This document shows positions 17,099 to 36,307 of a DNA stretch of 40,754 nt, piece by piece. A model generated the notes under the pieces. It was not told the origin of the DNA and did no database searches. It saw only the letters and a program-made list of their open reading frames with translations. The position numbers and the translations under genes are program-made. This DNA comes from Candidatus Pacearchaeota archaeon (GTDB lineage: Archaea; Nanobdellota; Nanobdellia; UBA10117; JAFCGI01), in assembly GCA_017608235.1 (NCBI GenBank), contig JAFCGI010000011.1, forward strand, positions 1-40,754, in the 5' to 3' direction. The stretch's first letter is position 1. Each line of letters starts with the position of its first letter.

Positions 17099-17130
17099 AG
17101 TTAGCGACACCTATTGGCCCAAAATTCCAA

Positions 17131-17163: not shown

Positions 17164-17175
17164 CTAATTTGTTTT

Positions 17176-17334: not shown

Positions 17335-17403
17335 CTGTTTCTTAGTTTCTTTGTTAGCTGGAGTTTTTTCACTTAATCAAAGTTACCGGTCTCATTTATT
17401 TAT

Positions 17404-17436
17404 TCGGGCACTGAAAGATTTATATACTTCGGGTGC
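17404..17436 (+). promoter_or_regulatory. IS promoter copy 2 with the same flanking elements
   Basis: GATTTATATAC (17417-17427) is a strong TATA box between TCGGGCAC and ACTTCGGGT. It is centred about 27 bases before the GTG start at 17449. The outer edges TTCGGGCAC and GTGCCGAA also form an imperfect inverted repeat, which suits a dimeric repressor. Confidence 0.6.
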
Positions 17437-17448
17437 CGAATATGTAGT

Positions 17449-18318
17449 GTGCTTGAAGAAATAAAGTGCATGCATTGTGGGAGCAAAAACAATTATAAAA
17501 AAGGCTACCGCAAAACTTTGTATAGAGGAAAAATACAAAAATACTACTGTAAGAGCTGTAGGAGATTTTTCACTCAGAATGATAGCTTTTACAGAATGGG
17601 AAATAAGCCGGAAATTATTGCAGTGTCAATTGATATGTATGTTTCAAACTTATCAAGCAGAAAGATGAGAAATCAACTTAAAAGACACTTTAATCACAAA
17701 ATAAGTCACGTTTCTATATTGGATTGGGTTAGAAGATATACATTAAAAGTTTACAAATTTATAGAAAATCAAGGTTATAACTTTGGAGGTAGATTTTATG
17801 CTGATGAAACAATGGTTGATTGTGAGGGTAGAAAAGATAGATTTTGGTGTTGTCTTGATTGGGATACGAGACTGATTACAGGAGTGCATTATAGCTTGAC
17901 TGCAAATCCGGTTGAAGCACAGAAATTTCTTAAAAAGGCTATCACCAAAGGAAAGCCAAAATACATTCAGACGGATGCAGGAATGTTTTATCCGAGAGCG
18001 TTCAGAAAAATGTTTTATTCTAATAAATTTGGTGGTTTAACAGTTGAGTATAGAATACAAAATTATCAAGAAACAAGAATCCATAACTATCGAATAGAAA
18101 CTGTGTTTATGAAAATCAAAGATAGAGTTCTTGACTTTAGAGGATTAAAGGCTCTTTGGTCTGCTCCAATCCTACTGAATGCAATAGTCATACAGCACAA
18201 CTTCATAGAAACTCATACAACTATTAATGAAATACCTTGCGAAACTGCAGGTGTTAAATTAGGGTTAGGAGAGAATAAGTGGTTGGATTTGATAAAGTTA
18301 AATAGTACCTTCTATTAA
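17449..18318 (+). CDS. DDE transposase, IS6/IS240-like archaeal type, 289 aa
   Basis: An N-terminal zinc ribbon (CMHC near the start, YYCKSCRRFF) and helix-turn-helix region precede a DDE domain: YADETMVDCEGR (first Asp), IQTDAGMF (second Asp) and NYRIETVFMKIKDR (Glu). All catalytic acids are present, so the enzyme may be active. GTG is chosen as start because it sits about 27 bases from the TATA box. The right end is odd: the stop lies four bases from the convergent recombinase gene stop and no terminal inverted repeat is visible, so the IS may have lost its right end or moved with the array. Confidence 0.85.
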   Translation: MLEEIKCMHCGSKNNYKKGYRKTLYRGKIQKYYCKSCRRFFTQNDSFYRMGNKPEIIAVSIDMYVSNLSSRKMRNQLKRHFNHKISHVSILDWVRRYTLKVYKFIENQGYNFGGRFYADETMVDCEGRKDRFWCCLDWDTRLITGVHYSLTANPVEAQKFLKKAITKGKPKYIQTDAGMFYPRAFRKMFYSNKFGGLTVEYRIQNYQETRIHNYRIETVFMKIKDRVLDFRGLKALWSAPILLNAIVIQHNFIETHTTINEIPCETAGVKLGLGENKWLDLIKLNSTFY

Positions 18319-18322
18319 AAGA

Positions 18323-19132
18323 TTAAAGCAGATCAGCAAGTTTTTTGATATCTTTGTTTGCTACATGAGTATAAATCTGTGTTGTTTTAAGATCCTTATG
18401 GCCTAACAATTGCTGAATGTATCTTATGTCTGCGCCAGATTCTAAGAGGTGAGTAGCAAAGCTGTGCCTTAGCGTGTGAGGGGTTACATTTTTCTTGATT
18501 CCTGCCTTTTTTGCGGCAGACTTTATAATTTGTTGAATTGTCCTTTTGTTGTATTTCCCTTCTCTCTGAGAAACAAAAATTGGACCTTCTTCCTTTATCC
18601 CATACATTCTCAATATATCACTCAGTTTCTTGTGGAGAAAGACCACTCTTTCCTTATCCCCCTTTGCAGTTTTTAGATGAATGGTTTCTCTGTCAAAATC
18701 AATATCTTTCCAGCCAAGATTTCGTACTTCATCCAATCGGAGACCTGCATAGTACAGAAACATGATAACCATCTTATGCTTCAGATTGCTTGTAGACTCT
18801 ATCATTTTGATTACTTCTTCTCTACTCAAAACCAAAGGCAATTTCAAGGATTTTCTAGCAAGTGGCAACTTCTCATCAAATTTGGTATTAAGCACGTTCT
18901 CATGAAAGAACTTCATAGCAAAATATGCAGATCTCATTGTTGACTTGCTTTTGTTGGAATATGACAAAAGAAAATCTCTTGGTGTTTTTCCTGAAGCAAG
19001 AAAGTCTTTCACGACAGAAATGTAAGACTTTCTTGTCTGATAAGAATATCTTCTGAGTTTTACTTCCTCAATCAGCTTGCCAATAAGCTTATATCGTTCC
19101 TCTGGTGAATAATTCTTGCCTATATCCGCCAT
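18323..19132 (-). CDS. Xer-like tyrosine recombinase, proposed integrase of the array, 269 aa
   Basis: The catalytic set is complete: Arg in GLRLDEVR, Lys in KGDKERVV, His-x-x-Arg in TPHTLRHSF, His in LLGHKDL, and the nucleophile Tyr in TTQIYTHV. An N-terminal SAM-like domain (about residues 10-95) contains [19 protein letters not shown]. Only about 20 residues separate KGDKERVV from [10 protein letters not shown], so the extra helix insertion of bacterial IntI is absent. The ATG at 19132 is chosen because the TATA box at 19155-19163 is 27 bases upstream; a longer frame to 19231 would run over that promoter and the inverted repeat. Position and divergent orientation match an integron integrase; chromosomal XerA is the alternative. 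Confidence 0.85.
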
Positions 19133-19154
19133 ACAATCTATTATGTGGGACAGG

Positions 19155-19163
19155 TATATAAAA
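19155..19163 (-). promoter_or_regulatory. TATA box of the recombinase gene
   Basis: Minus-strand TTTTATATA preceded by a purine-rich BRE-like GCGAGA. The distance of 27 bases to the ATG at 19132 decides the start and implies a leaderless transcript. Confidence 0.65.
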
Positions 19164-19186
19164 TCTCGCTTTTTATCCTGATTAGT

Positions 19187-19227
19187 ACTATTAAGCGAAT
19201 ATTTATCTCGCTTAATAGTTGTTAATT
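19187..19227 (+). other. Candidate attI site
   Basis: A perfect 12-bp inverted repeat, ACTATTAAGCGA (19187-19198) and TCGCTTAATAGT (19208-19219), with 9 bp between arms, is followed at 19221 by GTTAATT. The bases after it (GTTAATTGCAATTTT) match the head of the other cassettes (GTTA, then TCAATT). This is where attI lies in integrons, between the integrase start and the first cassette. The repeat could instead be an operator for the recombinase gene. Confidence 0.6.
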
Positions 19228-19231
19228 GCAA

Positions 19232-19730
19232 TTTTATTTTTCCGCCTACTTTAGAAACTTATTTAAAAACAGAGATTTTTTTAACATTATGCAGGAAGAA
19301 TTTATGCTATATGAAACAAAATTTTGGAAAGTTGTTTTAAGTGATGAACAATCCTATTTAGGTAGATGTGTAATTCTTCTCAAAAGAAATTGTGGTGAAT
19401 TATCAAATTTAACATCTGAAGAGTGGTTGGATTTTCATGAAAACATTGTGAAAAAATTGGAATCTGTTTTTAAGAAAGTATTTGATGCCACAATGTTTAA
19501 CTGGACTTGTTTGATGAATAATGCGTACCAAGCTGAAAATCCAAAACCTTATGTTCATTTCCATTTTAGACCAAGATATAATCATGATGTTAAATTTGCA
19601 GGAGAGGAATTCCATGATCCTGATTTTGGTCATCACTATAATCGTGAAAGAAAAAATTTTGTTTCTAAAGAATTACTTAAAAAAATCTCTGATGAAGTAA
19701 AGAAATACTTGTAACGGCGGAAAAATAAAA
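19232..19730. repeat. Payload-bracketing inverted repeat, cassette 1 (15 bp, perfect)
   Basis: Left arm TTTTATTTTTCCGCC (19232-19246) and right arm GGCGGAAAAATAAAA (19716-19730) are exact reverse complements. They enclose only the HIT gene and its promoter; the right arm begins one base after the stop codon. Confidence 0.9.
19289..19714 (+). CDS. HIT-superfamily hydrolase-like protein (cassette 1), 141 aa
   Basis: YVHFHFRPRY aligns with the HIT motif ending in PRY; the middle (nucleophilic) and last His are present while the first is Tyr. GRCVILLKRNCGELSNLTSEEW matches the beta strand and helix before the motif in HIT proteins, which cleave dinucleotide polyphosphates or adenylylated substrates. 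A TATA-like TTATTTAAAAA centred near 19263 lies 26 bases before this ATG, so the transcript is leaderless. An in-frame ATG at 19304 is an alternative. First cassette, adjacent to the candidate attI. Confidence 0.75.
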   Translation: MQEEFMLYETKFWKVVLSDEQSYLGRCVILLKRNCGELSNLTSEEWLDFHENIVKKLESVFKKVFDATMFNWTCLMNNAYQAENPKPYVHFHFRPRYNHDVKFAGEEFHDPDFGHHYNRERKNFVSKELLKKISDEVKKYL

Positions 19731-19782
19731 CTTCTTCGGCTTCGCCTCGACCACGCTGCGCTCTCGCCTATCGACTCGGGGC

Positions 19783-19901
19783 AATTAACAGGAATTTAAC
19801 GAGAAATGGCTCAGCTCGCCATTTCTCCAAATTTGATTTTCCAGCTCTGTTCACTTCGTTCACGAGGGAAAATCAAACTTCGTTAAATTCCGATGTTATA
19901 T
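19783..19901 (+). repeat. attC-like site A (end of cassette 1)
   Basis: AATTAAC opens and GTTATAT closes the site. Inner arms GGAATTTAACGA and TCGTTAAATTCC are a perfect 12-bp match, with two extra bases (GA) on the 3' side before TGTTA, the asymmetry expected of attC. Inside are two hairpins: GAGAAATGGC/GCCATTTCTC and TTTGATTTTCC/GGGAAAATCAAA. The GC-rich block just upstream (19735-19782, with CCACGCTGCGCTCTCGCC) recurs before sites C and F. Confidence 0.85.
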
Positions 19902-19944
19902 TCAATTTTTGGATTACTTAATTTAGAAAGAGAGAGGGGCGTCA

Positions 19945-20003
19945 GTGCTTACGCACATATAGTCTTTTTCTGCGGAAAAAGAAATTTTATTAGGGGGCGT
20001 CTT
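19945..20003 (+). repeat. Cassette-head two-hairpin module, copy in cassette 2
   Basis: Order: hairpin GTGC-TTAC-GCAC, ATATAG, hairpin TCTTTTTCTGCGGAAAAAGA, then ATTTTATTAG and the GGGGCGTCTT arm. Closely similar copies head cassettes 5 (27744-27799) and 7 (33381-33440). Confidence 0.8.
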
Positions 20004-21000
20004 ATAATTCATTACCCCGATTATATTGATGCAACAAGAATCTTTTTTGTGTATCCTTATCAATACCAACGATTCTGAAAATTACATTTTCCATAATCAT
20101 TTGAAGATAAAATAATAATTGTGGCTCTTTAATCAGCAAAGTTGAATTCAAATTATGAACTAAACTACCTCTAACGCCTATGAGCTTATTCAACATCTTA
20201 TTAAGTTTAGTTTTATCAAATCCCAAATCTAATGAATCAAAATAAAGTTTCATTTTTTCAACAGTATTATGCTCATAAAGAAAATTTCTTGTGATGCTTT
20301 TTTTAACAAGATTCAATCGCTTATCATTCTTCAAGCTTTTCTCTAATGTCTTCTCCAAATCAGCTTTTAATTTTTTAAGTTCATCTTTAGAAAACAATTT
20401 ATTTTTTGATTTATAGACCGAATAATGTTGGTTTGCTAATTTCTCTAAAGCAGACCAGCAAATCAAGAATTTTAATTCTCTAACCAACGATGAATGAGAA
20501 ATAATAAGTGCATGAATAGTCGTTAATATCTCATTAAGTTTTATGTCTTTTGAGGATGAAAGAGTTTTTAGAGCAATATCAAAAAATAAACTAATGTCTC
20601 GCGTATAAAATGCTCCCCTAGTATGAACTCCATGTATTAATTCAGAAAATCTGTTTTCTCTTTGTTCCACAAATTTTGAATGAAATGAAGAATATTTTTT
20701 ACCACTTTTGTATTTATACCAACCTAAAAAGAAAACACTTCTATTTTGAGCAAAAGAATAAAGAAACTCTATCCAACTTGCCAATTTTTTAGCTTCATCT
20801 TCTGTTCTTGTTTTAATAAAACATTTAGCTGTTTTCCAACCACCAGCACGATAATATGGTTTTGAAAATGTTGTTCTATTTTTCTCAAACTTTTCAGCGA
20901 ATTTTAAAGGAATTATTTTAATTCCAAATTCTTTATTTTCATACTTTTTACCTTTTGGAATGTATAGGTTATAAAAATCAAAAACATAGGTAACGGTCAT
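20002..21000 (-). CDS. HEPN-domain protein with Rx4H motif, last gene of the RM cassette, 332 aa
   Basis: The C-terminal half is helical and contains GVRGSLVHNLN (about residues 286-296), the Arg-x4-His motif of HEPN ribonucleases. The N-terminal part is beta-rich and resembles the amino-terminal domains fused to HEPN in abortive-infection (ApeA-like) proteins; that match is tentative. GGAG lies just upstream of the ATG and the gap to the nuclease gene is 8 bases. Likely an antiviral RNase that acts when restriction fails. The stop codon overlaps the inner bracketing repeat. Confidence 0.6.
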   Translation of the reverse strand: MTVTYVFDFYNLYIPKGKKYENKEFGIKIIPLKFAEKFEKNRTTFSKPYYRAGGWKTAKCFIKTRTEDEAKKLASWIEFLYSFAQNRSVFFLGWYKYKSGKKYSSFHSKFVEQRENRFSELIHGVHTRGAFYTRDISLFFDIALKTLSSSKDIKLNEILTTIHALIISHSSLVRELKFLICWSALEKLANQHYSVYKSKNKLFSKDELKKLKADLEKTLEKSLKNDKRLNLVKKSITRNFLYEHNTVEKMKLYFDSLDLGFDKTKLNKMLNKLIGVRGSLVHNLNSTLLIKEPQLLFYLQMIMENVIFRIVGIDKDTQKRFLLHQYNRGNEL

Positions 21001-21008
21001 CTTATCTC

Positions 21009-21491
21009 CTATAATTTCGGTGTCAAACTGGAATAATCAATACAATTTCTTACTTTATCCCATTTTGCTATTTGCATAAATTTATTTGTCTTTGTTCCAA
21101 ACTTCAACAAATCTTCTCGCTTCAAAACATTAAGTATATGTGATAATCTGCCTAATCCTTTGGAAGAAATCAAAAAAGATTCAATTGGATCTATTAGTTG
21201 TGTATATCCCCAAAGCTGTCCTAAATCTTTGAGAGTTAAATCAGTATCTTTAACCTCAACAAAAACAAGTTTAAAGTCGTTTCCTCGTTTCAAAATTCCG
21301 ACAATATCAACTTTAATCTGTAAACCAATAGCTTCCTTACAATTTATCCCTTTACTTTTCAGGACTACATCTAAATTTCTTCTTGAAGTTTCATAAGTAG
21401 TTTGAACTGTATAACCTTTGTACTTATCAGTTAAATAATTCTGCAACCATTCTTTTATTTCAGGATAAAGTTTTTCTTCTTCTTTACTCAT
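21009..21491 (-). CDS. PD-(D/E)XK nuclease-like restriction subunit, 160 aa
   Basis: KVDIVGILK followed by VFVEVKDTDLT gives the Asp...Glu-x-Lys catalytic triad, and GQLWGYTQL matches the following helix of PD-(D/E)XK nucleases. The small size suggests a separate cleavage subunit working with the neighbouring methyltransferases. It overlaps the upstream gene by eight bases (ATGAGTAA), so the two are coupled. Confidence 0.75.
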   Translation of the reverse strand: MSKEEEKLYPEIKEWLQNYLTDKYKGYTVQTTYETSRRNLDVVLKSKGINCKEAIGLQIKVDIVGILKRGNDFKLVFVEVKDTDLTLKDLGQLWGYTQLIDPIESFLISSKGLGRLSHILNVLKREDLLKFGTKTNKFMQIAKWDKVRNCIDYSSLTPKL

Positions 21492-22395
21492 CGTAACCTA
21501 ACTCCTTTGACATCTCTTTCCAACTATCAAAATGTTTTCTAACTTTTGAGGGTAATTTTGTGCTTTTCTCTTCAGGATGTTTCGGCTTTTTCCGATTAAT
21601 TTCTTTAGTTTCCCAATAAAATTTATGATGTATATCTGAAATGGGTTTATCCTTATATTTTTTGGAATTTTTTGATGCCTCTTTCCAATTATCTCTATTT
21701 AGTTTAGCAAATTTTTTCAATAGCTTATTTTTGTGGTCTATGTTAAAACCGACTTTTTCAAATTCTTCTGCCCATACTTTTATTTGATGTTCCTTGTTCC
21801 AAAATTCTTTTGAACCCTCATTATATTTTTTCAAATTTGGATCAACTATATTTGGATGGGCAAATCTAATTGTTTGGACTGGAACATCCAATTCTTTTAA
21901 TAAATTAGCAATATCTATGCACAAATCCCAATTAACCATTATTTCAACATAAACTCTATTTTCATAATCTTTCCATGCGACATTACTCTTTCTTATATGG
22001 GCTGTTACATCTGCAATGCCTCTTAAAAATTCTAATTTTATATCTTTTGTCGCTGAAAATATTTCTGTGGGAATTCTAACATCTCTCCAGCTTACATGAT
22101 TTTTCAAATATGTATTAATAGTTCTTATCAAATAATCTCCATTTGGCTTTGAAAAAGAAATATGGGCTATATTCGGTCTTGATGTGTCCCATTCCATATC
22201 TGTTCCCACAAGAGTTTTTAATCTTCCAACAATATCTAATAAACTTGATTTTACTGATTGTTGAGTATTCTCTCCTTCAATCATTAAATTTTTATGTGGA
22301 ATGTCAATGACAATTTCAGTATCTCTGTTTCCTCTGATTATTTGCCCTTTTCCGACAATCATTCCCAATAAATAAGCTATATCTGGATTTAACAT
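21484..22395 (-). CDS. Degenerate LAGLIDADG-like protein in the RM operon, 303 aa
   Basis: IAYLLGMIVGKGQIIRG and LEFLRGIADVTAHIR stand where the two LAGLIDADG motifs of homing-type endonucleases would be. The first motif has Lys in place of the usual catalytic acid (GKG for GDG); the second keeps an Asp (IAD). It may be a DNA-recognition subunit or a restriction enzyme with a changed active site. The ATG at 22395 is chosen because AGGAAG lies just upstream and the methyltransferase stops 5 bases earlier; an overlapping start at 22428 is less likely. Confidence 0.6.
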   Translation of the reverse strand: MLNPDIAYLLGMIVGKGQIIRGNRDTEIVIDIPHKNLMIEGENTQQSVKSSLLDIVGRLKTLVGTDMEWDTSRPNIAHISFSKPNGDYLIRTINTYLKNHVSWRDVRIPTEIFSATKDIKLEFLRGIADVTAHIRKSNVAWKDYENRVYVEIMVNWDLCIDIANLLKELDVPVQTIRFAHPNIVDPNLKKYNEGSKEFWNKEHQIKVWAEEFEKVGFNIDHKNKLLKKFAKLNRDNWKEASKNSKKYKDKPISDIHHKFYWETKEINRKKPKHPEEKSTKLPSKVRKHFDSWKEMSKELGYDE

Positions 22396-22399
22396 TTTT

Positions 22400-23188
22400 T
22401 CACTTCCTAAATATGAGTATAAACTCATGAACTTTATTTACTCTGAAAACAAACGGATAACCTAAAGGTCGCATATTATTATATTCTTTCTGTCTGTCCC
22501 AAATAATCATATCGTCTAATTCAAAACCTATTTCCTGCATTTTGTTTACTACATCCATGTGGAATGGATAAAACTTTGATTTTTTCCGTATATCCATAAC
22601 TACAACAATACAATACTTACCTTTTTTTAAGACTTTGTAAACTCCTTCAAACCCTTCTTTAAGTTTGTTTAAAAATTCTTGATAATCTGCAATATTTCCT
22701 AAATCATCTTTTGAATTACTATAATTCCTTATTTCTTTTCTATCGGCTGACCTTTTAGCGTTTAGTATATCCCAATATGGGGGGGATGTAATTACCAAAT
22801 CTACAGAATTTTCTTTTAATGTTTTAGGAATATCAAAGATTGTTTTATTGTAAATTTCGGGCTTAATCAAATCTTCTGGCTTTTGTTCTAAATTCAACTG
22901 AGTTTCTTTTATTCTACTTTCAGACAATTTGATATATTCTTTAGAAAGCTCAAAACCGACTCCTTTTCTTCCTAATTTATATGCTGATACTACCGTGCTT
23001 CCACTTCCCAAAAATGGATCTAAAACTACTTCTCCTTTATTTTTTGTATGAATCTGAATTAATCTTGATGTTAATTGAGTTGGAAACATAGCAGGATGTT
23101 TTAATTTCCTTTCTCCGTTAGTTTTCTCAATATCTTTCCAAATACTAAAAGAATATTGTAACCATTCTTTCCCTGTTAAATTATTCAT
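22400..23188 (-). CDS. DNA methyltransferase, N4-cytosine type, 262 aa
   Basis: VVLDPFLGSGST (SAM motif I) comes first and VITSPPYWD (catalytic motif IV) about 75 residues later. TSPPY is typical of N4-cytosine methylases of the N6_N4_Mtase family. The full motif set and the C-terminal FVFRVNKVHEFILIFRK strand look intact. The ATG at 23188 has GGGAG at good spacing; an ATG four codons upstream (23200) is possible. It probably protects one target strand or sequence of the linked nuclease(s). Confidence 0.85.
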   Translation of the reverse strand: MNNLTGKEWLQYSFSIWKDIEKTNGERKLKHPAMFPTQLTSRLIQIHTKNKGEVVLDPFLGSGSTVVSAYKLGRKGVGFELSKEYIKLSESRIKETQLNLEQKPEDLIKPEIYNKTIFDIPKTLKENSVDLVITSPPYWDILNAKRSADRKEIRNYSNSKDDLGNIADYQEFLNKLKEGFEGVYKVLKKGKYCIVVVMDIRKKSKFYPFHMDVVNKMQEIGFELDDMIIWDRQKEYNNMRPLGYPFVFRVNKVHEFILIFRK

Positions 23189-23201
23189 TCGTTCTCCCAT
23201 T

Positions 23202-24869
23202 TTACCACAAACTTTTTTCTGACATAATTTGCTTTAAAGCAAAATTTATTTTATTCTGTTCTGTTTTAGTTATTCCATATAACTTATATACCCTCTTATC
23301 AAGTTCAGGAAGTAACTTTTTAAGATTCTGTTTTTTTATCTGCTTTACAATCTTAATTATTTCATTCTGTTGTTCCCTGTTTGCTTTCTTGATAGGAATT
23401 TTACCCAAGTAAACCTTATCTGTGTGCATTGTAAGTTTTGATTTGTTATAAACTGCATACATAAGATAGAAATTGATTAGTTTGGAATTTAGCAACCCAT
23501 AAATATATTCTAATTTGTAGGATTTATCTTTAAGAATAACATTACTTACTGTATCAAAATTTAGATTACCTTTATCATCTATGGCAGAAATAATCCCTGC
23601 TTCACTTGAAAAAATATTTTGAAGAATAATCTTGCTTTTTTGAAATTCCTCTAATTTTGAAGAATTGTTATTTAATTTATTTATATCTATAAAAAAACCA
23701 TTGGAATATGAAAATTTAGAAATATCATTTCCCTTGATTATAGGTATTCTGTTTTTGGCTTTTGTTTTTGAGATTATTTCAGCATTTGGACTTATTGAAA
23801 TTCCCCTGAATATATTTGCAATATCCTCTAAATTCTCCCCTTTAATTTTTTCTATTAAATCATAATAAGTCTTATCTTCAAACATCAAAAAAGTGTTATA
23901 TTTTTGGAATATTTTTTGAGGAACATAAAATTCATTGTTGTTGTCAAAAACTCTGATTAAAACCTCATTATTCCTTATCTGCTCTTTTTTGTTAGTTTTC
24001 TGGATAAATAAAACTATCTGCTCTCCTCTGACATCTTTAAAACAAGTTCCTAAATCAAAAATATGTAATATTTTGGAATTATTTAATAGAAACTCTCTTA
24101 ATCTTGAATATGAATTAACCCTAATTAATGTTTTTGGTAAAACAAAAGCCATTATTCCCCATTCTTTAAGAAGTTCGTAAGATTTTGCAATTACCAAAGA
24201 TGCCGCGTTTGTGCTTCCGTTTGCGATTTGAGAAAAGAAAGACTCGTTTATATCATAATCTCTTTTATTTTTTAAAGTTACATATGGGGGATTTCCGATT
24301 ATAAAATCAAAGCCACCATTATTAAGAATATTTGAAAAATATTTTTTCCAGTTAAATGCTTTTTTATCTATAAATTTATTTTCAACAATAGAATTTCCAA
24401 TTTTAATATTTTTCTCAAGTATATCTAATGAGTTTGAGTCTTGTCCATTTCTTAACCACAAATTTATTCTCGCTATCTTAGTTGCAGAATTATTTAAATC
24501 AACGCCATAAACATTATTTAGAGCATTTGGACTTATCTGTTTTAGGTAATTATATGCAGTTACTAAAAAGACCCCACATCCGCAAGTCGGATCTAAAATT
24601 TTAGAATCTTTTTTTATATTGAGAAAATTTATAATGTAATTAACTATTTCTTGGGGAGTGTAAAATTGCCCCAAATCTTTTTTTTCTTGTTCTCTTATTA
24701 GCTTCTCAAATAGAACTCCTAAAGTATCTTCTTTTATTTTTGTTAGTTGCTCTTGTTTGAGTCTCTTTACAACTTTATTTATTATTTTATCCTTATATGG
24801 CAAAGACTCCAAAGTATCCTTGCTTAAATAAAAATTCTCTTGCATTGGCGGAACTAAAACAGTATCCAT
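23202..24869 (-). CDS. N6-adenine DNA methyltransferase with C-terminal target recognition domain, 555 aa
   Basis: LGQFYTPQEIV, DPTCGCGVFLV (motif I) and IIGNPPYVTL (motif IV, N-P-P-Y) define a gamma-type N6-adenine methylase like HsdM, TaqI or type IIG enzymes. Residues 340-520 resemble a TaqI-like specificity domain with internal repeats. No nuclease domain is seen in this protein. Its ATG overlaps the stop of the small ribbon-helix-helix gene (TAATG). Two methylases of different chemistry in one operon suggest an asymmetric target or two combined systems. Confidence 0.85.
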   Translation of the reverse strand: MDTVLVPPMQENFYLSKDTLESLPYKDKIINKVVKRLKQEQLTKIKEDTLGVLFEKLIREQEKKDLGQFYTPQEIVNYIINFLNIKKDSKILDPTCGCGVFLVTAYNYLKQISPNALNNVYGVDLNNSATKIARINLWLRNGQDSNSLDILEKNIKIGNSIVENKFIDKKAFNWKKYFSNILNNGGFDFIIGNPPYVTLKNKRDYDINESFFSQIANGSTNAASLVIAKSYELLKEWGIMAFVLPKTLIRVNSYSRLREFLLNNSKILHIFDLGTCFKDVRGEQIVLFIQKTNKKEQIRNNEVLIRVFDNNNEFYVPQKIFQKYNTFLMFEDKTYYDLIEKIKGENLEDIANIFRGISISPNAEIISKTKAKNRIPIIKGNDISKFSYSNGFFIDINKLNNNSSKLEEFQKSKIILQNIFSSEAGIISAIDDKGNLNFDTVSNVILKDKSYKLEYIYGLLNSKLINFYLMYAVYNKSKLTMHTDKVYLGKIPIKKANREQQNEIIKIVKQIKKQNLKKLLPELDKRVYKLYGITKTEQNKINFALKQIMSEKSLW

Positions 24870-25015
24870 TATTTAACCTCTTTTTTAACTTCTTTTTCCA
24901 TATAATTTTGAAATTGCTTTGAAACAATCCATCCTTTTTTATCGCACTGCTCTTTAAATTTATCATAAATTTCAGAATCCACAAATAAAGTTACTCTTTT
25001 TTTACCCATCATCAT
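24869..25015 (-). CDS. Small ribbon-helix-helix-like controller, 48 aa
   Basis: Three ATG codons open the frame (25015, 25012, 25009), followed by KKRVTLFVDSEIYDKFKEQC, a beta strand then helix typical of ribbon-helix-helix repressors. It is the first gene of the operon, and a perfect 20-bp palindrome lies between it and its TATA box. This is the arrangement of a controller protein that limits restriction-modification expression. Its stop overlaps the methylase start. Confidence 0.7.
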   Translation of the reverse strand: MMMGKKRVTLFVDSEIYDKFKEQCDKKGWIVSKQFQNYMEKEVKKEVK

Positions 25016-25019
25016 CCCC

Positions 25020-25039
25020 TTTATGTAAGCTTACATAAA
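25020..25039. promoter_or_regulatory. Perfect 20-bp palindromic operator
   Basis: TTTATGTAAGCTTACATAAA is fully palindromic. The minus-strand TATA box (ATTTATATAG, 25055-25064) puts the expected transcription start near 25034, inside the palindrome, so a bound dimer would block initiation. Likely site for the adjacent ribbon-helix-helix protein. Confidence 0.7.
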
Positions 25040-25313
25040 ATTATTAACTCCTTTCTATATAAATCTTACGCACACTTGTCTAGTGGTAAGTGTAAAAGAC
25101 GCCCCTAAATGTTCTTTTCAGAAAAGAACCAAAACAAGACGCCCCTTCTATCTTCTTTTTTTAGAAAAAAGAAGCAAAAAATCTGACGCCCCTCTCTCGT
25201 CCTTCGGACATATTCACTCGCCTTCGACTCGAATTATCAGTAATCCAAAAACTCTAAAATTTTGCCTTCGGCATCGTTGCACTAAATTTTAGGTCTTCCC
25301 TTTGGTCAGACGA

Positions 25314-25403
25314 ATATAACAAGGATTAACCGACTACGAAGTCTTGCAGACTTCTCCGTCCAAATCGTGCTACGCACGACTTCGGTTAATCCTGATGTTA
25401 TGC
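25314..25403 (+). repeat. attC-like site B (end of cassette 2)
   Basis: ATATAAC opens, GTTATGC closes. Inner arms AGGATTAACCGA and TCGGTTAATCCT match perfectly over 12 bp, with two extra bases on the 3' side. Hairpins GAAGTC-TTGCA-GACTTC and TCGTGC-TAC-GCACGA lie inside. The upstream TTTTGCCTTCGGCATCGTTGCACTAAA-like block (25259 on) recurs before site E. Confidence 0.85.
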
Positions 25404-25479
25404 TCAATTCGGGCTGGCTCGCTCTCCGTGACTTTTAATTTTAACAACTTTTATAAACGATTTTAAATAAACTGATTAT

Positions 25480-26661
25480 ATGGCTGCGACTCTTAGAGCA
25501 AATCTTTGGAAAATATATCTTTTCAAATTTTTTGTTAGTTTCCATTTCATTGCTGGAGTACTAGTTCCTTTTTTTATAGATTGGGGCGGTATAAACTTTA
25601 CGCAGATAATGATTTTACAATCTTGGTTTATGCTTTGGATTTTTCTTTTAGAAATCCCTACTGGAACTGTTGCTGATTATTTAGGCAGGAAACACTCTCT
25701 TGTTTTAGCATGTGGTGTAAATACAATAGCTGCTTTCATATATGCAAGTATGCCTAATTTTTACATTTTCTTGCTTGGTGAATTTTTATGGGCAATGTCA
25801 GCTGCATTATTGTCCGGTGCAGACGAAGCATTTGTTTATGATACTCTGAAAAAAATTAATGAAACAAAAAAATCAAAACAGATTTTTGGTAGAATAGAAA
25901 GCTTTGGTTTGGCTGGCATTATGATTGGTGCACCTATTGGTAGTTTTATTGCAGATCAATTTGGTTTAAGAGCACCAATGTTATTATTAATTGTTCCATT
26001 TAGCATAGCTTTTCTTATTGCTCTAACTTTTAAAGAACCTAAAACTACTCAAAAAATAGAATCAAAACGATATATTAATATATTAAAAGACGGCGTAAAA
26101 TTTTTTTATAGGAACAGAGTTCTGAAAATTTTGGCTATAGATATGATTTTTATAGCATCTATTGCCTACTTTATGATCTGGTTATACCAGCCAATGTTAA
26201 AACAAGCAGGTATAAATATTGCTTACTTTGGTATAGTTCATGCGGCGTTTGTGGTAAGCCAGATATTAATTATAAATAATTACCAGAGACTTGAAAAAAT
26301 ATTTGGATCAAAAAAACGATTGATTTTCTTTAGCGCAGCAATAACAGGGGTTATGTTTATTATTGGTGGTTTAACAACATTTATTCCTTTAGTTTTACTA
26401 GCTATAATACTTAGTGGTGGCTTTGGCTTATCAAGAAGACCCCTTTTTGTAAGTTATATGAACAAATATATTCCATCACCAAAAAGAGCAACTGTACTTT
26501 CAACAATTTCCATGATTAGAAGATTTGCTCTTGTTATCATAAACCCAGCAGTTGGATTACTAGTAGACTGGTCATTAAATTATACATTAATAATCTTAGG
26601 AGTCGCAGCCATTGTTTTTTCACTAATATCTAAAGTAGAAGAAAGCCATCTGATAGATTAA
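25480..26661 (+). CDS. MFS transporter (cassette 3), 393 aa
   Basis: About 11-12 membrane helices are visible. The loop after helix 2 reads GTVADYLGRKHSLVL, the major facilitator G-x3-D-x2-G-R-K signature, and a duplicate six-helix pattern follows. A charged cytoplasmic loop near residues 185-205 separates the halves. Probably a drug or small-molecule efflux pump; the substrate is unknown. TATA-like CTTTTATAAAC (about 25448-25458) lies about 27 bases upstream, so the gene has its own leaderless promoter inside the cassette. Confidence 0.85.
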   Translation: MAATLRANLWKIYLFKFFVSFHFIAGVLVPFFIDWGGINFTQIMILQSWFMLWIFLLEIPTGTVADYLGRKHSLVLACGVNTIAAFIYASMPNFYIFLLGEFLWAMSAALLSGADEAFVYDTLKKINETKKSKQIFGRIESFGLAGIMIGAPIGSFIADQFGLRAPMLLLIVPFSIAFLIALTFKEPKTTQKIESKRYINILKDGVKFFYRNRVLKILAIDMIFIASIAYFMIWLYQPMLKQAGINIAYFGIVHAAFVVSQILIINNYQRLEKIFGSKKRLIFFSAAITGVMFIIGGLTTFIPLVLLAIILSGGFGLSRRPLFVSYMNKYIPSPKRATVLSTISMIRRFALVIINPAVGLLVDWSLNYTLIILGVAAIVFSLISKVEESHLID

Positions 26662-26783
26662 GCTGAAATTTTCTTAAAATCGCTCGCGCCCCGAACTCTT
26701 CGTCGCTAACGCTCCTCGCCTTCGCTCCACTTCGTTCCGCTCGACCACGTTGCACTCTCACTTCGCTTCGCTACGTTCGGGTC
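26662..26783. other. GC-rich pre-attC block of cassette 3
   Basis: No gene. From about 26684 the sequence is GC-rich with repeated CTTCG/CGCT words (CTCGACCACGTTGCACTCTC at about 26738). It is related to the blocks before sites A and F. Only a weak TTCGGGC/GCCCCGAA inverted match to the cassette head is present, unlike the clear arms of most other cassettes. Confidence 0.6.
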
Positions 26784-26877
26784 GACTAACAGCGATTAAG
26801 AGGTTACGCTCGGTTGCACCTCGCTCCGTCCAAATTTCGCCTATCGGCGAAACTTCGGTTAATGCGATATGTTAGTT
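26784..26877 (+). repeat. attC-like site C (end of cassette 3)
   Basis: GACTAAC opens and GTTAGTT closes. Inner arms are imperfect (GCGATTAAGAGG against CGGTTAATGCG). The inner hairpin TTTCGCC-TAT-CGGCGAAA and the TTGCA word are conserved. The left arm would pair perfectly with the right arm of site D, hinting at exchange between sites. Confidence 0.75.
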
Positions 26878-26908
26878 TCAATTATTTTCAAGGGCTAAAG
26901 ACGGAGGA

Positions 26909-27411
26909 GGGCAGTTTTTCTTTTCGTTAATTTTATAAACTTGGATTTATATTTATTAAAATATGTCTGGAATAAGTGAAGAATTACATACGGGAGAAAA
27001 AATAGATAAAGAATTTGGTATTCATCCTTTGGAATACCTTGGGATTTATATTCTTGGTGGAATATTAATTTTAACAATAGTGGGTGCGATTATAGGTATT
27101 CCATTAATTATCATTGCTGAATTTGTAAGACGAGGTCATAAATACTATCTTACTGATAAAAGAGTTATCCATCAATTTACCTTTTTATCGAGAAAAACTT
27201 CTACTGTGTTTTATGATAAAATTCAAGATGTTCATTTTACCCAAGGAATAATTGAAAGAATCTTTGGTTTAGGTGAAGTTCATGTCAACACAGCGGGAAC
27301 ACATTTGGTTGAGATAGTCTTTAAGGGTGTTCAAAACCCAGTTAATGTTAAAAGAATGATAGAACATCATATGATAAAAAAGAAAAAATAATATTACAAG
27401 AAAAACTGCCC
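26909..27411. repeat. Payload-bracketing inverted repeat, cassette 4 (14 bp, perfect)
   Basis: GGGCAGTTTTTCTT (26909-26922) and AAGAAAAACTGCCC (27398-27411) are exact reverse complements. They enclose the PH-domain gene and its promoter; the right arm starts seven bases after the stop codon. Confidence 0.9.
26963..27391 (+). CDS. Bacterial-PH (bPH_2/DUF304-like) membrane protein, cassette 4, 142 aa
   Basis: Two closely spaced hydrophobic stretches (about residues 24-52) form a membrane hairpin. Then GHKYYLTDKRVIHQFTFLS, VFYDKIQDVHFTQGIIERIFG and LGEVHVNTAG follow, the conserved signature of YdbT/YdbS-type PH-like domains. The role is probably membrane- or lipid-associated. A TATA-like TTTTATAAAC near 26930-26939 lies about 28 bases before the ATG, giving a leaderless transcript. 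Confidence 0.8.
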   Translation: MSGISEELHTGEKIDKEFGIHPLEYLGIYILGGILILTIVGAIIGIPLIIIAEFVRRGHKYYLTDKRVIHQFTFLSRKTSTVFYDKIQDVHFTQGIIERIFGLGEVHVNTAGTHLVEIVFKGVQNPVNVKRMIEHHMIKKKK

Positions 27412-27536
27412 TTTAATTCTTGTTCTTGATTTATCGCATTCGCTCATTGGATAGACCGCCCTTGAAAATAACTCTTCGGGATTTTTTGCTTCGCAAAAAA
27501 CCGTCTTGCAGACTATGGCTCGGTCTTAGCAGATGC
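27412..27536. other. Pre-attC block of cassette 4
   Basis: No gene. The segment 27464-27527 (CTCTTCGG, then TTTTTTGCTTCGCAAAAAA hairpin, CCGTCTTGCAGACTATGGCT) is nearly identical to 36046-36110 before site G. Confidence 0.7.
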
Positions 27537-27627
27537 GTATAACAGCGATTAAGAGGTAAATTTTCTTGCAGAAAATTTCCCAAAATTTTGCCTACGGCAA
27601 AACTTCTCTTAATCGCATACGTTAAAT
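27537..27627 (+). repeat. attC-like site D (end of cassette 4)
   Basis: GTATAAC opens and GTTAAAT closes, an exact GTTRRRY match. Inner arms GCGATTAAGAG and CTCTTAATCGC are perfect over 11 bp with extra bases on the 3' side. Hairpins AAATTTTC-TTGCA-GAAAATTT and TTTTGCC-TAC-GGCAAAA are inside. Confidence 0.85.
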
Positions 27628-27689
27628 CCAATAGCCAAAAACCTTAATCCACCAAACCGCCCGCCCTTAAATTGGGAGAGGTTGCCCGC

Positions 27690-27799
27690 GTCCCTGCGGG
27701 ACAGATAGTTTCGGCTTTGTCTCAAAATTTATAGGGGGCGTCAGTGCTTCGCACATATAGTCTTTTTCTGAGAAAAAGAGATTTTATTAGGGGAGTCTT
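27690..27799 (+). repeat. Cassette-head hairpin modules in cassette 5
   Basis: GTCCC-TGC-GGGAC-AGATAG occurs at 27690-27708. The full module follows at 27744-27799: GTGC-TTC-GCAC, ATATAG, TCTTTTTCTGAGAAAAAGA, ATTTTATTAG and a GGGGAGTCTT arm. This copy is about 90% identical to the head of cassette 2. Confidence 0.8.
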
Positions 27800-27815
27800 T
27801 ATTTATTCACAAGAA

Positions 27816-28019
27816 TTATTTTTTCATTCTTTTTTTCAAAATATTTACGTTCTTTTCATGGTGTAAATCTTCAACAATTTGTTTAAAATTAGGTTGTTTT
27901 ACTTGTAATGATTTTGATTTTGTGAAACGATAATTTACAAGATTATTCCTCTTGGATAAATCAATCAACTTCTTCTTCCAATATTCAGATTTCTTATTGA
28001 TTAATTGTTTAGTGTCCAT
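27816..28019 (-). CDS. N-terminal fragment of a DUF4011-type helicase-like protein, 67 aa
   Basis: WKKKLIDLSKRNNLVNYR matches the start of DUF4011 domains, which begin very large helicase/nuclease-like proteins often linked to defence. Here the frame ends after 67 residues close to the bracketing repeat, so it is either a truncated remnant or a small separate protein. GGAG in the end of the HEPN gene supports its translation. Confidence 0.55.
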   Translation of the reverse strand: MDTKQLINKKSEYWKKKLIDLSKRNNLVNYRFTKSKSLQVKQPNFKQIVEDLHHEKNVNILKKRMKK

Positions 28020-28023
28020 TTAT

Positions 28024-28506
28024 TTATCTCCTCTTGGTTGTTGCCTTTTGAAATTTATCTCTAATTTCATTGACTTTCTTTTCATTTAATTTGATAAGAA
28101 CAGATTTACATTTAACCAGAAATTCAGGAGCTTTCTGAACCATCTTATTGTATTGCTCAACTGGAACAGTTCTGTCTATATAATATTGAGAATCAACTCT
28201 TGCTTTCAAAGAGTCTTCAGTAAAATCTAATTCTTTTTCTTCAAAAAATTCCTTTAGAAATCTTTTTGCAAACTCAATAGTACAAGAGTGAATCTTGCAT
28301 TTTACACCTAATTTCATTAAGACAGCATATAATGAAAAATAAATTGTGTAATATGCAGTTGAAATTTTCCAATCTTTAATAATGTTCACTCGCATTGATT
28401 CAAGTGCTTCTTCTGCTTTCTTTAAGTAAGCATTTGCCAAATCAGAGTTCGGCTCAATCAAACTTAATCCTTCTCTCTTTCCTGCACACCATTTGATTTT
28501 ATCCAT
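28024..28506 (-). CDS. HEPN-domain protein of an HEPN/MNT pair, 160 aa
   Basis: LANAYLKKAEEALESMRV, a DWKISTAYYTIYFSLYAVL helix and ARVDSQYYID follow the PF05168-type HEPN pattern. A clear R-x4-6-H RNase motif is not visible, so toxicity may depend on a different residue set or be absent. The start overlaps the end of the MNT gene by eight bases, the usual layout of HEPN/MNT modules, in which the nucleotidyltransferase neutralises the HEPN protein by AMPylation. Confidence 0.75.
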   Translation of the reverse strand: MDKIKWCAGKREGLSLIEPNSDLANAYLKKAEEALESMRVNIIKDWKISTAYYTIYFSLYAVLMKLGVKCKIHSCTIEFAKRFLKEFFEEKELDFTEDSLKARVDSQYYIDRTVPVEQYNKMVQKAPEFLVKCKSVLIKLNEKKVNEIRDKFQKATTKRR

Positions 28507-29089
28507 TTTTGAAGACCCTTTGTATAAATTGTTCTACATTTAGAAAAACCACATGATTTTTTAAAACTTCTTTCAGGAGAATATCTTTTGTTAGATTTTT
28601 TTCAAAAATTTTTGGAGAGTAACATTTAATGCTTACGTCTATTCCCAAATTTTTTGAAACTTTTTTTATTTCATCATTATTATAACTTCCTGCAACAAAA
28701 ATATCTAAATCAGAACCTTCCTTTTCCAATCCTTTAACATAACTTCCAAATATTATTCCTATTCCCTTGATGTGAGGAGCTATTTTTTCTATAATTTCTT
28801 TAATCAAGAGTTTCTTTTCCAGAAATGCAATTGCCTTATATTGCTCTACAAAAACAAGATACCTCTTAGTAAATTCGCTTGGATTTAACTTAAATGTTTT
28901 AATCTTACCTTTAGTCTTTGATTCTATAATTCCCTTGTCTTCCAAATCCTCAAGAATAAGCTGTGCTGTTCTTGGGCTTATTTTTAGCAATTTTTCAACT
29001 TCCCGAACATAATATTCTCTAGTAAAATCATTCGTAAATAGGGATAATACTTGCAATGTGTTTTCCGTAATCTTAATCTTTTTATACAT
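28499..29089 (-). CDS. Winged-helix/MNT nucleotidyltransferase antitoxin-like protein, 196 aa
   Basis: Residues 1-75 form a winged helix (YYVREVEKLLKISPRTAQLI, then EDLEDKGIIESKT). Residues 100-190 form a minimal nucleotidyltransferase with GIIFGSYVKGLEKEGSDLDI, the G-S-x9-D-x-D catalytic motif. The ATG at 29089 is chosen because minus-strand TTTTATATAGT (about 29111-29122) is 28 bases upstream; the longer frame to 29137 overlaps this promoter. Likely represses its own operon and modifies the HEPN partner. Confidence 0.8.
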   Translation of the reverse strand: MYKKIKITENTLQVLSLFTNDFTREYYVREVEKLLKISPRTAQLILEDLEDKGIIESKTKGKIKTFKLNPSEFTKRYLVFVEQYKAIAFLEKKLLIKEIIEKIAPHIKGIGIIFGSYVKGLEKEGSDLDIFVAGSYNNDEIKKVSKNLGIDVSIKCYSPKIFEKNLTKDILLKEVLKNHVVFLNVEQFIQRVFKNG

Positions 29090-29370
29090 ATGTATAATTA
29101 ATAATACAATTACTATATAAAACTTTTGGTTGTTCAAAAAATAACAAACGACGCCCCTAAATGTTCTTTTCAGAAAAGAGCCAAAACAAGACGCTCCTTC
29201 TATTTTCTTTTTTTAAGAAAAAAAGAAACAAAAAAAGCACGCGTCTCTCTAATACATTGCCCACCCAAAAAATATTATTCCAAATCATAAAAATGGCATT
29301 CTCAAAAACTTTGATTTTTTGCCTTCTGCATCGTTGCACTAAAAATCAATCCCTCCAAGTATTTGGGAGA

Positions 29371-29460
29371 AGCTAACAGCGATTAAGCGGTTACGAAGTC
29401 TTGCAGACTTCTCCATCCAAATTCGCCTACGGCGAACTTCGGTTAATCCTGATGTTAAAC
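29371..29460 (+). repeat. attC-like site E (end of cassette 5)
   Basis: AGCTAAC opens and GTTAAAC closes (exact GTTRRRY). Hairpins GAAGTC-TTGCA-GACTTC and TTCGCC-TAC-GGCGAA are inside. Inner arms are imperfect (GATTAAGCGG against CGGTTAATCC). Its right half is almost the same as that of site B, while its left end resembles C and D. Confidence 0.8.
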
Positions 29461-29555
29461 TCAATAATTTTTAGTGGCTAAAAGTAGATAGAGGGGACAT
29501 TTCTAAACGAAGAATTTAACAAACGAGGGGGTTCTGTCTTTATAATATACAAATG

Positions 29556-30146
29556 CTATTTTTCTATTGATATCTCTATTGTATCTAAAAAATCTGTAAC
29601 TTTAGCTTCCAACAGATCTTTAAGTGATACATCTTTCAATGCACTTTTTATTGAATAAATGTAAATCAGTCGCATGAACCAACCATGAGTGATACACAAA
29701 ATAGTATCATAATCTAATCCTTTAACATAATTTAAAAAATCTAAAAATCTTATTTTTACCGCTTCAAAATTTTCTGAATAACACGAATTGTAAAACTGTG
29801 TCAATATTTTTGTTCTAAGATTATTAAAATCAACAATATCTTCTTGGTTAATAATTCCTTTAATAAAATTAACTTCATTTAATAATGAAGATGACTCAAA
29901 ATTAATATGGGTAATTTCGTTAACTATTTGTGCTGTTTCAATTCCTCTGTTTTGATTTGAACAAATTACAAAATTGACATCAGATAAACATTTTTTATAT
30001 TTTAAAAACGATTTAGTTTTTTCTTTATTAATTTTAGGATTAACTTTTTTAGTTAATAAGTTTTCAAATTCATCAAAATCTAGTTTGGAATAATCTTTAT
30101 ATTTATCTTCTAAATATCCATGTCTCATAAAAATTATTTTTTTCAT
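29556..30146 (-). CDS. Histidine-phosphatase superfamily protein, 196 aa
   Basis: IFMRHGYLED carries the catalytic RHG motif, and SNQNRGIETAQIV plus ITHGWFMRL supply the second Arg and His. This is the phosphoglycerate-mutase-like phosphatase fold. It overlaps the PEP-synthase-like gene by four bases (ATGA), so one transcript gives both proteins. Pairing a phosphotransferase with a phosphatase suggests a phosphorylation cycle on one small molecule or protein; this is inference. Confidence 0.8.
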   Translation of the reverse strand: MKKIIFMRHGYLEDKYKDYSKLDFDEFENLLTKKVNPKINKEKTKSFLKYKKCLSDVNFVICSNQNRGIETAQIVNEITHINFESSSLLNEVNFIKGIINQEDIVDFNNLRTKILTQFYNSCYSENFEAVKIRFLDFLNYVKGLDYDTILCITHGWFMRLIYIYSIKSALKDVSLKDLLEAKVTDFLDTIEISIEK

Positions 30147-32254: not shown

Positions 32255-32359
32255 CTTGATTTGTTGATTTCATTGTAAATTCGATAAGACACTACAATTA
32301 TTTAAAACTTATGTCATAAATAGAAAGTTTTATAAATATTAGTCATATCTTAATTAGAT

Positions 32360-33109: not shown

Positions 33110-33264
33110 AATAAATTGAATTATTAAGCCATATATAAATATTTACACCCCCCAAGTCTTTATGTTCTTTTTTGATGGCACTTCGTGCTTGATAAACGCC
33201 CTCTTTCTCAACTCACTCCGCTTACGCTCCGTGCCACGCTGCACTCTCGCCTACGGCTCGGGGT
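33110..33264. other. Cassette 6 tail, GC-rich pre-attC block
   Basis: No intact gene. From about 33205 the sequence (CTCCGTGCCACGCTGCACTCTCGCC) is close to the block before site A. Confidence 0.6.
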
Positions 33265-33356
33265 AATTAACAGGGCTTAAACGGAAAATGCCTCAGCTCG
33301 GCACGCTCCCAAATGCTCACTATGTTCGCAACTTCGTATACTAGCATATGTTCAAC
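33265..33356 (+). repeat. attC-like site F (end of cassette 6), degenerate
   Basis: AATTAAC opens and GTTCAAC closes. Left arm CAGGGCTTAAACGG and right arm ACTTCGTATACTAGCATAT pair poorly. Position, polarity and the shared upstream block support it, but it may be inactive. Confidence 0.6.
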
Positions 33357-33380
33357 GAAATAAATTTTTGGGTGCGGGCA

Positions 33381-33440
33381 GTCCTTCGGACAGATAGCCT
33401 TTTGCTTTGCAAAAGATATTTATTAGTTAAAGGGGAGTTC
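33381..33440 (+). repeat. Cassette-head two-hairpin module, copy in cassette 7
   Basis: GTCC-TTC-GGAC, AGATAG, hairpin CTTTTGCTTTGCAAAAG, ATTTATTAG, then the AAGGGGAGTTC arm. Compared with cassettes 2 and 5, both stems carry different bases but keep pairing. Confidence 0.8.
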
Positions 33441-33537
33441 TTGATTGATAGGGGAGTTCCTTAGTTCTGACGGACACCTACGCTTTTACTTCGTAAAAGA
33501 TAAATTTATATATGCATTTTTATTTATAACAGATATT

Positions 33538-35781: not shown

Positions 35782-36125
35782 ATTTTAACCTCTTTTTTAG
35801 GAAACAGCAAAACTACTATATAAATTCTTCTCAGAACACCACCGATTACTTGCTCTTGAAGGCTCACTATGTTTGCATTGATTGAACGGAACTCCCCTTG
35901 ATGCACTAACTAAATAGCCTTCGGCTTTAATATAACGAACTCCCCTTGGTGTATGTTCTTAAAGGCTCTTACGAGATAGATAAAACTGAACTCCCTCAGT
36001 GCTACGCACATATAGACTCACTACGTTCGAATTTATTGGAAATGGAAATTTTACTCTTCGGAATTTTTTTGCTTCGCAAAAAACCGTCTTGCAGACTATG
36101 GCTTGGTCTTCCTATCGTCAGACGT
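35782..36125. other. Cassette 7 tail with repeat arms and pre-attC block
   Basis: No gene. It holds the right arms of the cassette 7 repeats, a GTGC-TAC-GCAC-ATATAG hairpin at 35999-36015, and a block (36046-36110) nearly identical to 27464-27527 before site D. Confidence 0.65.
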
Positions 36126-36216
36126 GTATAACACCGCTTAAAAGGTAAAATTTCTTGCAGGAATTTTCCCAAAATTTCGGCTACGCCGAAACTTCTCTTA
36201 ATCGTATATGTTATGC
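36126..36216 (+). repeat. attC-like site G (last site, end of cassette 7)
   Basis: GTATAAC opens and GTTATGC closes. Hairpins AAATTTC-TTGCA-GGAATTT and TTTCGGC-TAC-GCCGAAA are inside. The inner arms are imperfect. Only about 90 bases separate it from the Rpo7 start codon, so the array ends at a core transcription and translation operon. Confidence 0.75.
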
Positions 36217-36307
36217 CAATACGACCTCAATTTAGCTGTTGCTAACTTTACCGCTTACTGATAAGTAAACTTTATAAAGGAAAGATTTGTTCTCTGCACT
36301 GATTAAT

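Follow-up and report, generated by a model that had tools for sequence, protein, structure and literature searches.

Bacterial integrons hold tandem cassettes, each ending in a folded attC site with R″ and R′ boxes (TAAC..GTTA), and a conserved attI lies beside the recombinase gene, with a first cassette that differs between genomes. Most bacterial cassettes carry one gene with small adjacent regions, as stated in part of PMC5371416. In archaea, including DPANN, attC cassette arrays with an attI semi-conserved across phyla have been described; sections of that report (Ghaly et al. 2022, PMC9668308) list six IntIs with the IntI-specific domain, partial in some, and bacterial-type searches (HattCI, IntegronFinder) with hits in 75 of 6718 archaeal genomes. 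The way in which genes are turned into cassettes has been described as largely unknown (in a portion of PMC5371416), and passages of PMC8618304 list cassette genesis among open questions. Here we describe a contig of a Candidatus Pacearchaeota archaeon (GenBank assembly GCA_017608235.1, contig JAFCGI010000011.1; the whole stretch of 40,754 nucleotides (nt) is called the window), in which a recombinase gene, a conserved attI and seven attC sites identify, on sequence grounds, an archaeal integron. The two ends of its cassettes are matched to each other across the genes that they enclose, and such frames recur around unrelated payloads.

The tandem cassettes, folded attC sites, attI beside the recombinase gene and variable first cassette of bacterial integrons are found in this locus as well. 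It differs from them in a recombinase without the IntI-specific region, in an attC site with a three-way fold, in the paired cassette ends and in flanks that are often long; in the class 1 arrays that we looked at, gaps between neighboring cassette genes are 38 to 148 nt and leave little room for such flanks. It resembles the archaeal integrons of Ghaly et al. in its arrays and attI but differs from them, to judge from the sections cited above, in that its recombinase family has no IntI-specific domain. The parts of PMC9668308 that cover some of its results make no mention of paired cassette ends, and a literature search by title and start of the abstract, with most subscription papers and all preprints outside its scope, found no paper on them. 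Non-coding cassette parts with a role of their own are also reported for the gene-less cassettes and promoters of Vibrio superintegrons (part of PMC11014356); there the role is promoter activity, whereas here complementary ends lie outside the apparent promoters.

In seven of seven window cassettes, the left end finds its best inverted match in the right end of the same cassette. The stem that we call P1 joins a left arm, beginning 11 nt after the crossover core, to an arm in the cassette's own right end; nested additional arms and local hairpins often accompany it. A pairing test was set on 31 cassettes of 14 arrays, and 60 more regions were then fetched. The final set holds 130 cassettes with lengths of 350 to 7000 nt; first cassettes next to attI were part of the initial 31 and lie outside the 130. 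Scores of at least 26, the equivalent of 13 perfect bases, were found between own ends in 57% of the 130 cassettes, compared with 2.4% of wrong pairs, 1.5% of wrong pairs of the same locus and none of 72 neighbor pairs across one junction; the observed sum was reached by none of 20,000 permutations. Of the 112 cassettes whose loci were collected once the test had been fixed, 67 paired their own ends, against 307 of 12,432 wrong combinations (7 of the other 18 cassettes did so). Control values were 1.5% of 600 for non-array DNA, 6% for direct repeats and 2 of 63 for cassette interiors. In class 1 integrons, none of 3 scorable cassettes from six regions (one of them without annotated cassettes) was paired, a number too small to imply absence in bacteria.

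P1 also has a fixed position. The left arm starts exactly 11 nt after the G of the core in 42 of 76 strong matches. When a fixed 13-mer at offset 11 was compared with the right spacer, at least 11 of 13 bases paired in 63% of own combinations and 0.8% of wrong ones, and all 13 paired in 38% and 0.14%, respectively; at offset 19, pairing was down to 4% own against 0.2% wrong. The right arm ends at a median of 58 nt before attC. The 82 arms with at least 11 of 13 pairs comprise 77 distinct sequences with a median identity of 4/13, implying that it is the pairing that is kept, not the sequence. This diversity also bears on the idea of small gene-carrying transposons, with the brackets as their terminal inverted repeats. 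Inverted brackets do enclose genes, and an IS6-like transposase adjoins the recombinase, but the arms have no sequence in common and are tied to attC, and the cassette proteins searched included no transposase. One terminal repeat common to the copies, the mark of a transposon, was not found, and a glance by eye at cassette 1 revealed no target-site duplication. We give this idea hardly any credence.

Within the window, P1 arms are perfect in cassettes 1, 2 and 4. The end stem of cassette 1 joins TTTTATTTTTCCGCC at 19232..19246 (+) to 19716..19730 (+) without a mismatch. In cassette 2, the left P1 arm TTTTTGGATTACT at 19906..19918 (+), 11 nt after the core, pairs 13/13 with 25239..25251 (+); the same arm sequence is found in the cassette L111:1559-5083. 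Two further brackets are nested inside it, a middle one with perfect pairing (GAGAGAGGGGCGTCAG, 19930..19945 (+) with 25183..25198 (+)) and an inner one with a single bulge (TTAGGGGGCGTCTT, 19990..20003 (+) with 25094..25108 (+)). Cassette 4 has a 13/13 P1 (TTATTTTCAAGGGC, 26882..26895 (+), with 27458..27471 (+)) and a second bracket, AGGGCAGTTTTTCTT, at 26908..26922 (+) with its partner at 27398-27412. The Thermoplasmatales array L028 has a first cassette in which the paired end seems to run directly into the R box of attC, the 58-nt spacer being absent.

Excision of a cassette as a circle would make its right end, its attC and its left end neighbors, and the sequences at this joint fit together. 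Within a cassette, the bases after GTTA paired 5/5 with those that precede TAAC in 77 of 127 cases, compared with 10 of 127 for the next cassette, and in 114 of 128 the own-circle joint had a better fold than the array joint (p 5e-20); these tests covered 127 and 128 of the 130 cassettes, respectively, the rest having too little sequence or no AAC box. Array joints folded no better than random joints. In the predicted fold of the circle joint, P1 closes a junction of spacer hairpins and the three-way attC. An RNAalifold consensus of 49 circle joints did not recover P1, the sequences being too diverse for alignment, and P1 therefore rests on the anchored tests described above.

Paired ends and shared frames are there to be read in the sequences; what we infer from them is a mechanism. 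On balance, we lean toward the view that the brackets make up one extended recombination site based on structure, which the payload splits into halves when the cassette is integrated, and that the XerA-like recombinase runs the integron. We imagine that excision of a cassette as a circle would bring the two halves together, and that in a single-stranded circle they would fold into one multi-branched site made up of the closing stem, the spacer hairpins and the three-way attC. The recombinase would use this folded site for insertion at attI, and insertion would split the site again to either side of the payload. Selection would then hold the ends to match each other and be blind to the payload, so that ordinary events within a surviving frame, namely insertion, deletion and recombination, could replace its genes.

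The main rival, which is compatible with a circle but which we consider unlikely, is that the ends pair across the payload while the array is single stranded at replication, joining the flanking attC hairpins so that this cassette is excised; cassette-specific arms would prevent pairing with neighbors. Pairing within cassettes and none across junctions is what such a loop-out clamp predicts, nested arms flanking long payloads would suit a zipper, and part of PMC5371416 indicates that excision in bacterial integrons is favored by simultaneous folding of the two flanking attC sites. Against it, the fixed spacing to attC (11 nt on the left, about 58 nt on the right) and the pairing at the R box are best explained by ends that are adjacent, that is, by a circle.

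Selection on the match of the ends and not on the gene would lead to frames with unrelated payloads, and cassettes 2 and 5 share a frame of this kind. The initial annotation held that the flanks of these two cassettes are about 90% alike around unrelated genes, and that payloads seem to be swapped within a fixed frame. Alignment bears out the likeness: on the left, 19936-20011 (cassette 2) and 27735-27809 (cassette 5) are identical in 69 of 78 columns (88%), and on the right, 25094-25286 and 29146-29343 are identical in 157 of 207 (76%), with 88% over the first 88 nt without a gap. Local alignment scores were 101 on the left and 151 on the right, while 200 shuffles of each reached no more than 32 and 38, and no other pair of window cassettes matched at both ends by this method. 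The payload of cassette 2 (20002..24869, minus strand) is a restriction-modification set with an N6_N4 methylase, an Eco57I/TaqI_C methylase and three proteins without a Pfam match; that of cassette 5 (28024..29137, minus strand) is a pair of HEPN and MNT (nucleotidyltransferase) proteins. The two show no similarity, the best payload-to-payload DNA score of 37 being at shuffle level. At cassette 2, similarity breaks off on the left at the stop codon of the gene and begins on the right outside the apparent promoter.

The bracket common to the two cassettes is the inner one, which lies 41 nt from the core in cassette 2 and 114 nt from it in cassette 5, where it spans 27735..27809 (+), with GGGGCGTC and hairpins, on the left and, by alignment, 29146..29235 (+) on the right. 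Cassettes 2 and 5 differ in their outermost left ends (27621-27734 in cassette 5), so the frame is not identical throughout. The right end of cassette 5 (27621-29454) bears GGCATTCTCAAAAA, and the expected left partner is absent; L157:10007-11638 (oriented coordinates) has the same right end together with the left partner of GGCATTCTCAAAAA. Cassette 5 thus looks like a hybrid, as far as its sequence tells. The string GACGCCCC occurs 7 times, with 0.03 expected.

Sharing of frames is general. By blastn (E ≤ 0.001, with at least 30 nt on the left and at least 60 nt on the right), both ends are shared in 21 pairs that involve 21 of the 130 cassettes; the pair of cassettes 2 and 5 is outside the 21, the shared left part of cassette 5 lying mostly beyond the first 130 nt compared. 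At E ≤ 1e-4, payload proteins were dissimilar in all 21 pairs. The initial annotation had named similarity that extends into the genes, a sign of common descent of the whole cassette, as a refuting result, and none was seen; at E ≤ 1, a single weak match (8e-4) links cassette 2 and L152:6176, two restriction-modification cassettes that both carry DNA methylases. In the 7 of 21 pairs that were measured, sharing reached from the core to between 60 and 192 nt on the left and began 109 to 205 nt before attC on the right. Cassette 2, for example, is 84% (left) and 89% (right) identical to L111:1559-5083, the payload of which comprises a radical SAM protein, a methyltransferase and a helix-turn-helix protein. 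Payload orientation can vary within one frame, being plus in L111:108 and minus in L112:2936. Cassette pairs with similar proteins, for their part, had at most parts of their ends in common; in the closest of these, cassette 4 with its PH-domain gene and a gene of L025 (89% identity), only the right end was shared. Together, these patterns suggest an exchange of genes inside a reusable frame, and the initial proposal stands in so far as payloads differ within shared frames.

Contrary to the proposal, the frame is not fixed; frames are cassette specific, and their arms covary. In frames related to that of cassette 2, alignments show that hairpin sequences are kept and that arms differ yet match again: GAGAGAGGGGCGTCAG/CTGACGCCCCTCTCTC in cassette 2, GAGGGGGAGTCCAG/CTGGACTCCCCCTC in L109:3843 and GGGGGTTTCCGCC/GGCGGAAACCCCC in L152:6176. 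Similarly, L139:6312 and L155:3361 have an outer frame in common, and their innermost arms differ but pair in each. The evidence for such co-change is two alignments, one of five and one of three cassettes, and not a count on a tree. It bears on the possibility that the complementary ends are a useless relic of birth, left by the process that made the cassette (e.g., synthesis with fold-back or template switching, on a circle of single-stranded DNA). Many arms are perfect 13- to 17-mers, as if from one event, and arms are lost in some cassettes, as a relic might be; however, in L109:3843, L152:6176, cassette 2 and L111:1559, arms differ in a matched way next to hairpins that are alike, which would need repeated matched change, and a relic would not account for the fixed distance to the core. 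We regard a relic as improbable, more so than the clamp.

Two side observations concern frames elsewhere. In a genome of the same order (L137:3540-3790), the left end of cassette 2 is found just after an attC, followed by chromosomal-looking genes; upstream of that attC are genes resembling another restriction-modification set with, by eye, a related right bracket. The first cassettes of L019 and L037, from two archaea, have an identical left end, GTTATGTGCAATCCGCCTCCGCCCGCC, and apparently different genes.

Several findings weigh against a split recombination site. About 37% of the cassettes have no recognizable P1, window cassettes 3, 5, 6 and 7 among them, and some frames contain several nested arms, a number that seems to exceed the needs of a simple recombination site. 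Cassettes 6 and 7 do have other paired brackets despite the lack of P1: in cassette 6, AGGGGGTTCTGTCTT at 29526..29540 (+) pairs with 32994-33008 with 1 mismatch, and in cassette 7, two copies of GGGGAGTTC at 33432..33459 (+) have GAACTCCCC at 35889-35897 and 35937-35945 as partners. Counts of G·T wobbles by strand, taken as a guide to the strand that folds, were 14 versus 22 in P1 (p 0.24) and, in the other direction, 42 versus 30 in the attC stem (p 0.19); the R box, with 6 versus 17 (p 0.035), is the only element leaning to the bottom strand. Finally, in the archaeal class that we sampled, attC matches (E ≤ 0.001) occur in 114 of 378 genomes and the recombinase (E ≤ 1e-70) in 25, with both in 18 of these 25 compared with attC in 96 of the other 353, a co-occurrence that speaks for the proposed site; against it, the recombinase is undetected in 96 of 114 attC-bearing genomes. 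The archaeal sequences come nearly all from draft genomes, and the missing recombinases may possibly be due to fragmented metagenome-assembled genomes (MAGs).

The wobble counts also touch on a reading modeled on rolling-circle plasmids, in which an excised single-stranded circle would have its second strand primed by the folded frame. The large branched structure and the conserved hairpin loops would be in keeping with such an origin; the strand bias of the wobbles is not decisive. We consider it very improbable. Two other candidates were set aside. Pairing at solo attC sites, which a contiguous palindromic mobile attC element would require, reached 26 in 1 of 20 cases, with arms far from the P1 positions, and in 0 of 72 array junctions; with these negatives, the model of two attC elements flanking a gene was dropped. 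An RNA panhandle was set aside on account of apparent archaeal TATA boxes, seen by eye between arms and genes, which would place the arms outside the gene's own transcript; a panhandle in read-through RNA is still conceivable.

The integron lies between the genes for an inorganic pyrophosphatase (16430-17098) on one side and the RNA polymerase subunit Rpb7 (36287-36898) on the other. The putative attI (19170..19235, no strand assigned; CTATTAAGCGA..TCGCTTAATAGTTGTTAATTGCAAT, crossover core at 19221) sits next to the presumed integrase gene and is a conserved palindromic site ending in its core, GTTANNNNCAAT. It is found upstream of the recombinase in most aligned relatives and is conserved beside it across many archaeal groups; in the alignment of relatives from several groups, the sequences diverge directly after the core, as expected where cassettes enter.

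Seven predicted attC sites, all on the plus strand, follow in tandem. They end cassette 1 (19781..19908, core 19895; fold z −6.5, R2 match), cassette 2 (25312..25410, core 25397; z −6.9, R2 95 bits), cassette 3 (26782..26884, core 26871; fold test and R2 match), cassette 4 (27535..27634, core 27621; z −6.6, R2 match), cassette 5 (29369..29467, core 29454; fold test and R2 match), cassette 6 (33263..33363, core 33350; degenerate, 34.5 bits) and cassette 7 (36124..36222, core 36210; fold test and R2 match). Each is predicted to fold as a single strand, with the R″ and R′ boxes paired, into an outer stem with two inner hairpins, the three-way form noted above. The folds are better than those of nearly all shuffles in 6 of 7 sites (z −2.6 to −6.9), the exception being the sixth, which folds no better than its shuffles (z +1.3). 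On one side of the stem, two to four bases are left unpaired and are candidates for the extrahelical bases that set strand choice in integrons. An Rfam search of 17000-37000 gave no match to an RNA family.

The presumed integrase is a XerA-like tyrosine recombinase (18323..19231, minus strand; Pfam PF00589, 2e-43), with a likely start at an ATG near 19134 that gives 269 amino acids. The closest solved structures are those of archaeal XerA (5hxy, 1.5e-39, and 4a8e), and the closest NCBIfam model is also XerA; unlike archaeal XerA, it adjoins attI and attC arrays and, at 213.3 bits, scores below the cut-off of 220 of the XerA model NF040815. The integron integrase models fit less well still against their cut-offs (TIGR02249, 192 bits, cut-off 265; PRK15417, 131 bits, cut-off 435). 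The protein aligns in two pieces to IntI4, and a stretch of about 45 residues of IntI1 and IntI4 has no counterpart in it; this stretch is presumably what is known as the IntI-specific domain. With this additional domain apparently missing, the recombinase falls outside a defining test for IntI, though its surroundings are integron-like, and it would not pass the usual IntI criterion.

Relatives of the recombinase were found at 49 loci, the best with 80 to 87% identity over most of the protein, in Woesearchaeota, Pacearchaeota, Aenigmatarchaeota, Diapherotrites, Micrarchaeota, DHVE2/Thermoplasmatales and others; none was found in the viral contigs searched. A covariance model made from the seven window attC sites matches sites upstream of relatives in other archaea. 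The attC model R2 gave 218 matches in the 85 sources searched. The cassette set was built on 214 of them, leaving out L037 (cut at a contig end), L119 (a minus-strand duplicate), L125:10002-10072 and L127:3541-3655; a default core position was used for 9 of the 214, which have no GTT at the expected core. The tests of end pairing and of frames used attC sites from one model, itself built from such arrays. Presence of attC in 114 of 378 genomes of one class is far above the 75 of 6718 archaeal genomes obtained by bacterial-type searches (sections of PMC9668308). We tentatively suggest, at less than even confidence, that these elements are a separate line of integrons, with a XerA-like recombinase without the IntI domain in many archaeal groups, a cassette-specific closing stem that acts as a structural self-match of the two ends, a site complete only in the circle and frames that are refilled. 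Frames shared between cassettes, with ends matched to each other, offer a concrete route to cassette genesis, that of refilling, and a handle for testing it; refilling with unrelated genes, if true, would answer how gene cassettes are made.

Other observations concern the arrays and their surroundings. The same genome contains a second, decayed integron (L010/L138; G000:C32, about 52800-54500), with a recombinase fragment interrupted by 7 stops and an attC match. On the array side of the recombinase match, the contig ends within about 300 nt in L020, L023, L026, L032-L034, L036, L041 and L042, and likewise in L044, L046, L049, L051-L054 and L057-L059, a pattern suggestive of assemblies breaking at arrays, in which case attC is probably undercounted in MAGs. 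In the window, an IS6-like transposase gene (17449-18318) directly adjoins the recombinase gene. A 44-nt inverted pair (17070-17113 and 36233-36276, 80% complementary) encloses the whole integron region, including this transposase, and possibly delimits a larger mobile unit. At 16935-17084, beside the integron, the pyrophosphatase gene has tandem 30-nt repeats at its 3′ end, and tandem 21-nt repeats at 40438-40752 comprise at least 10 copies in register.

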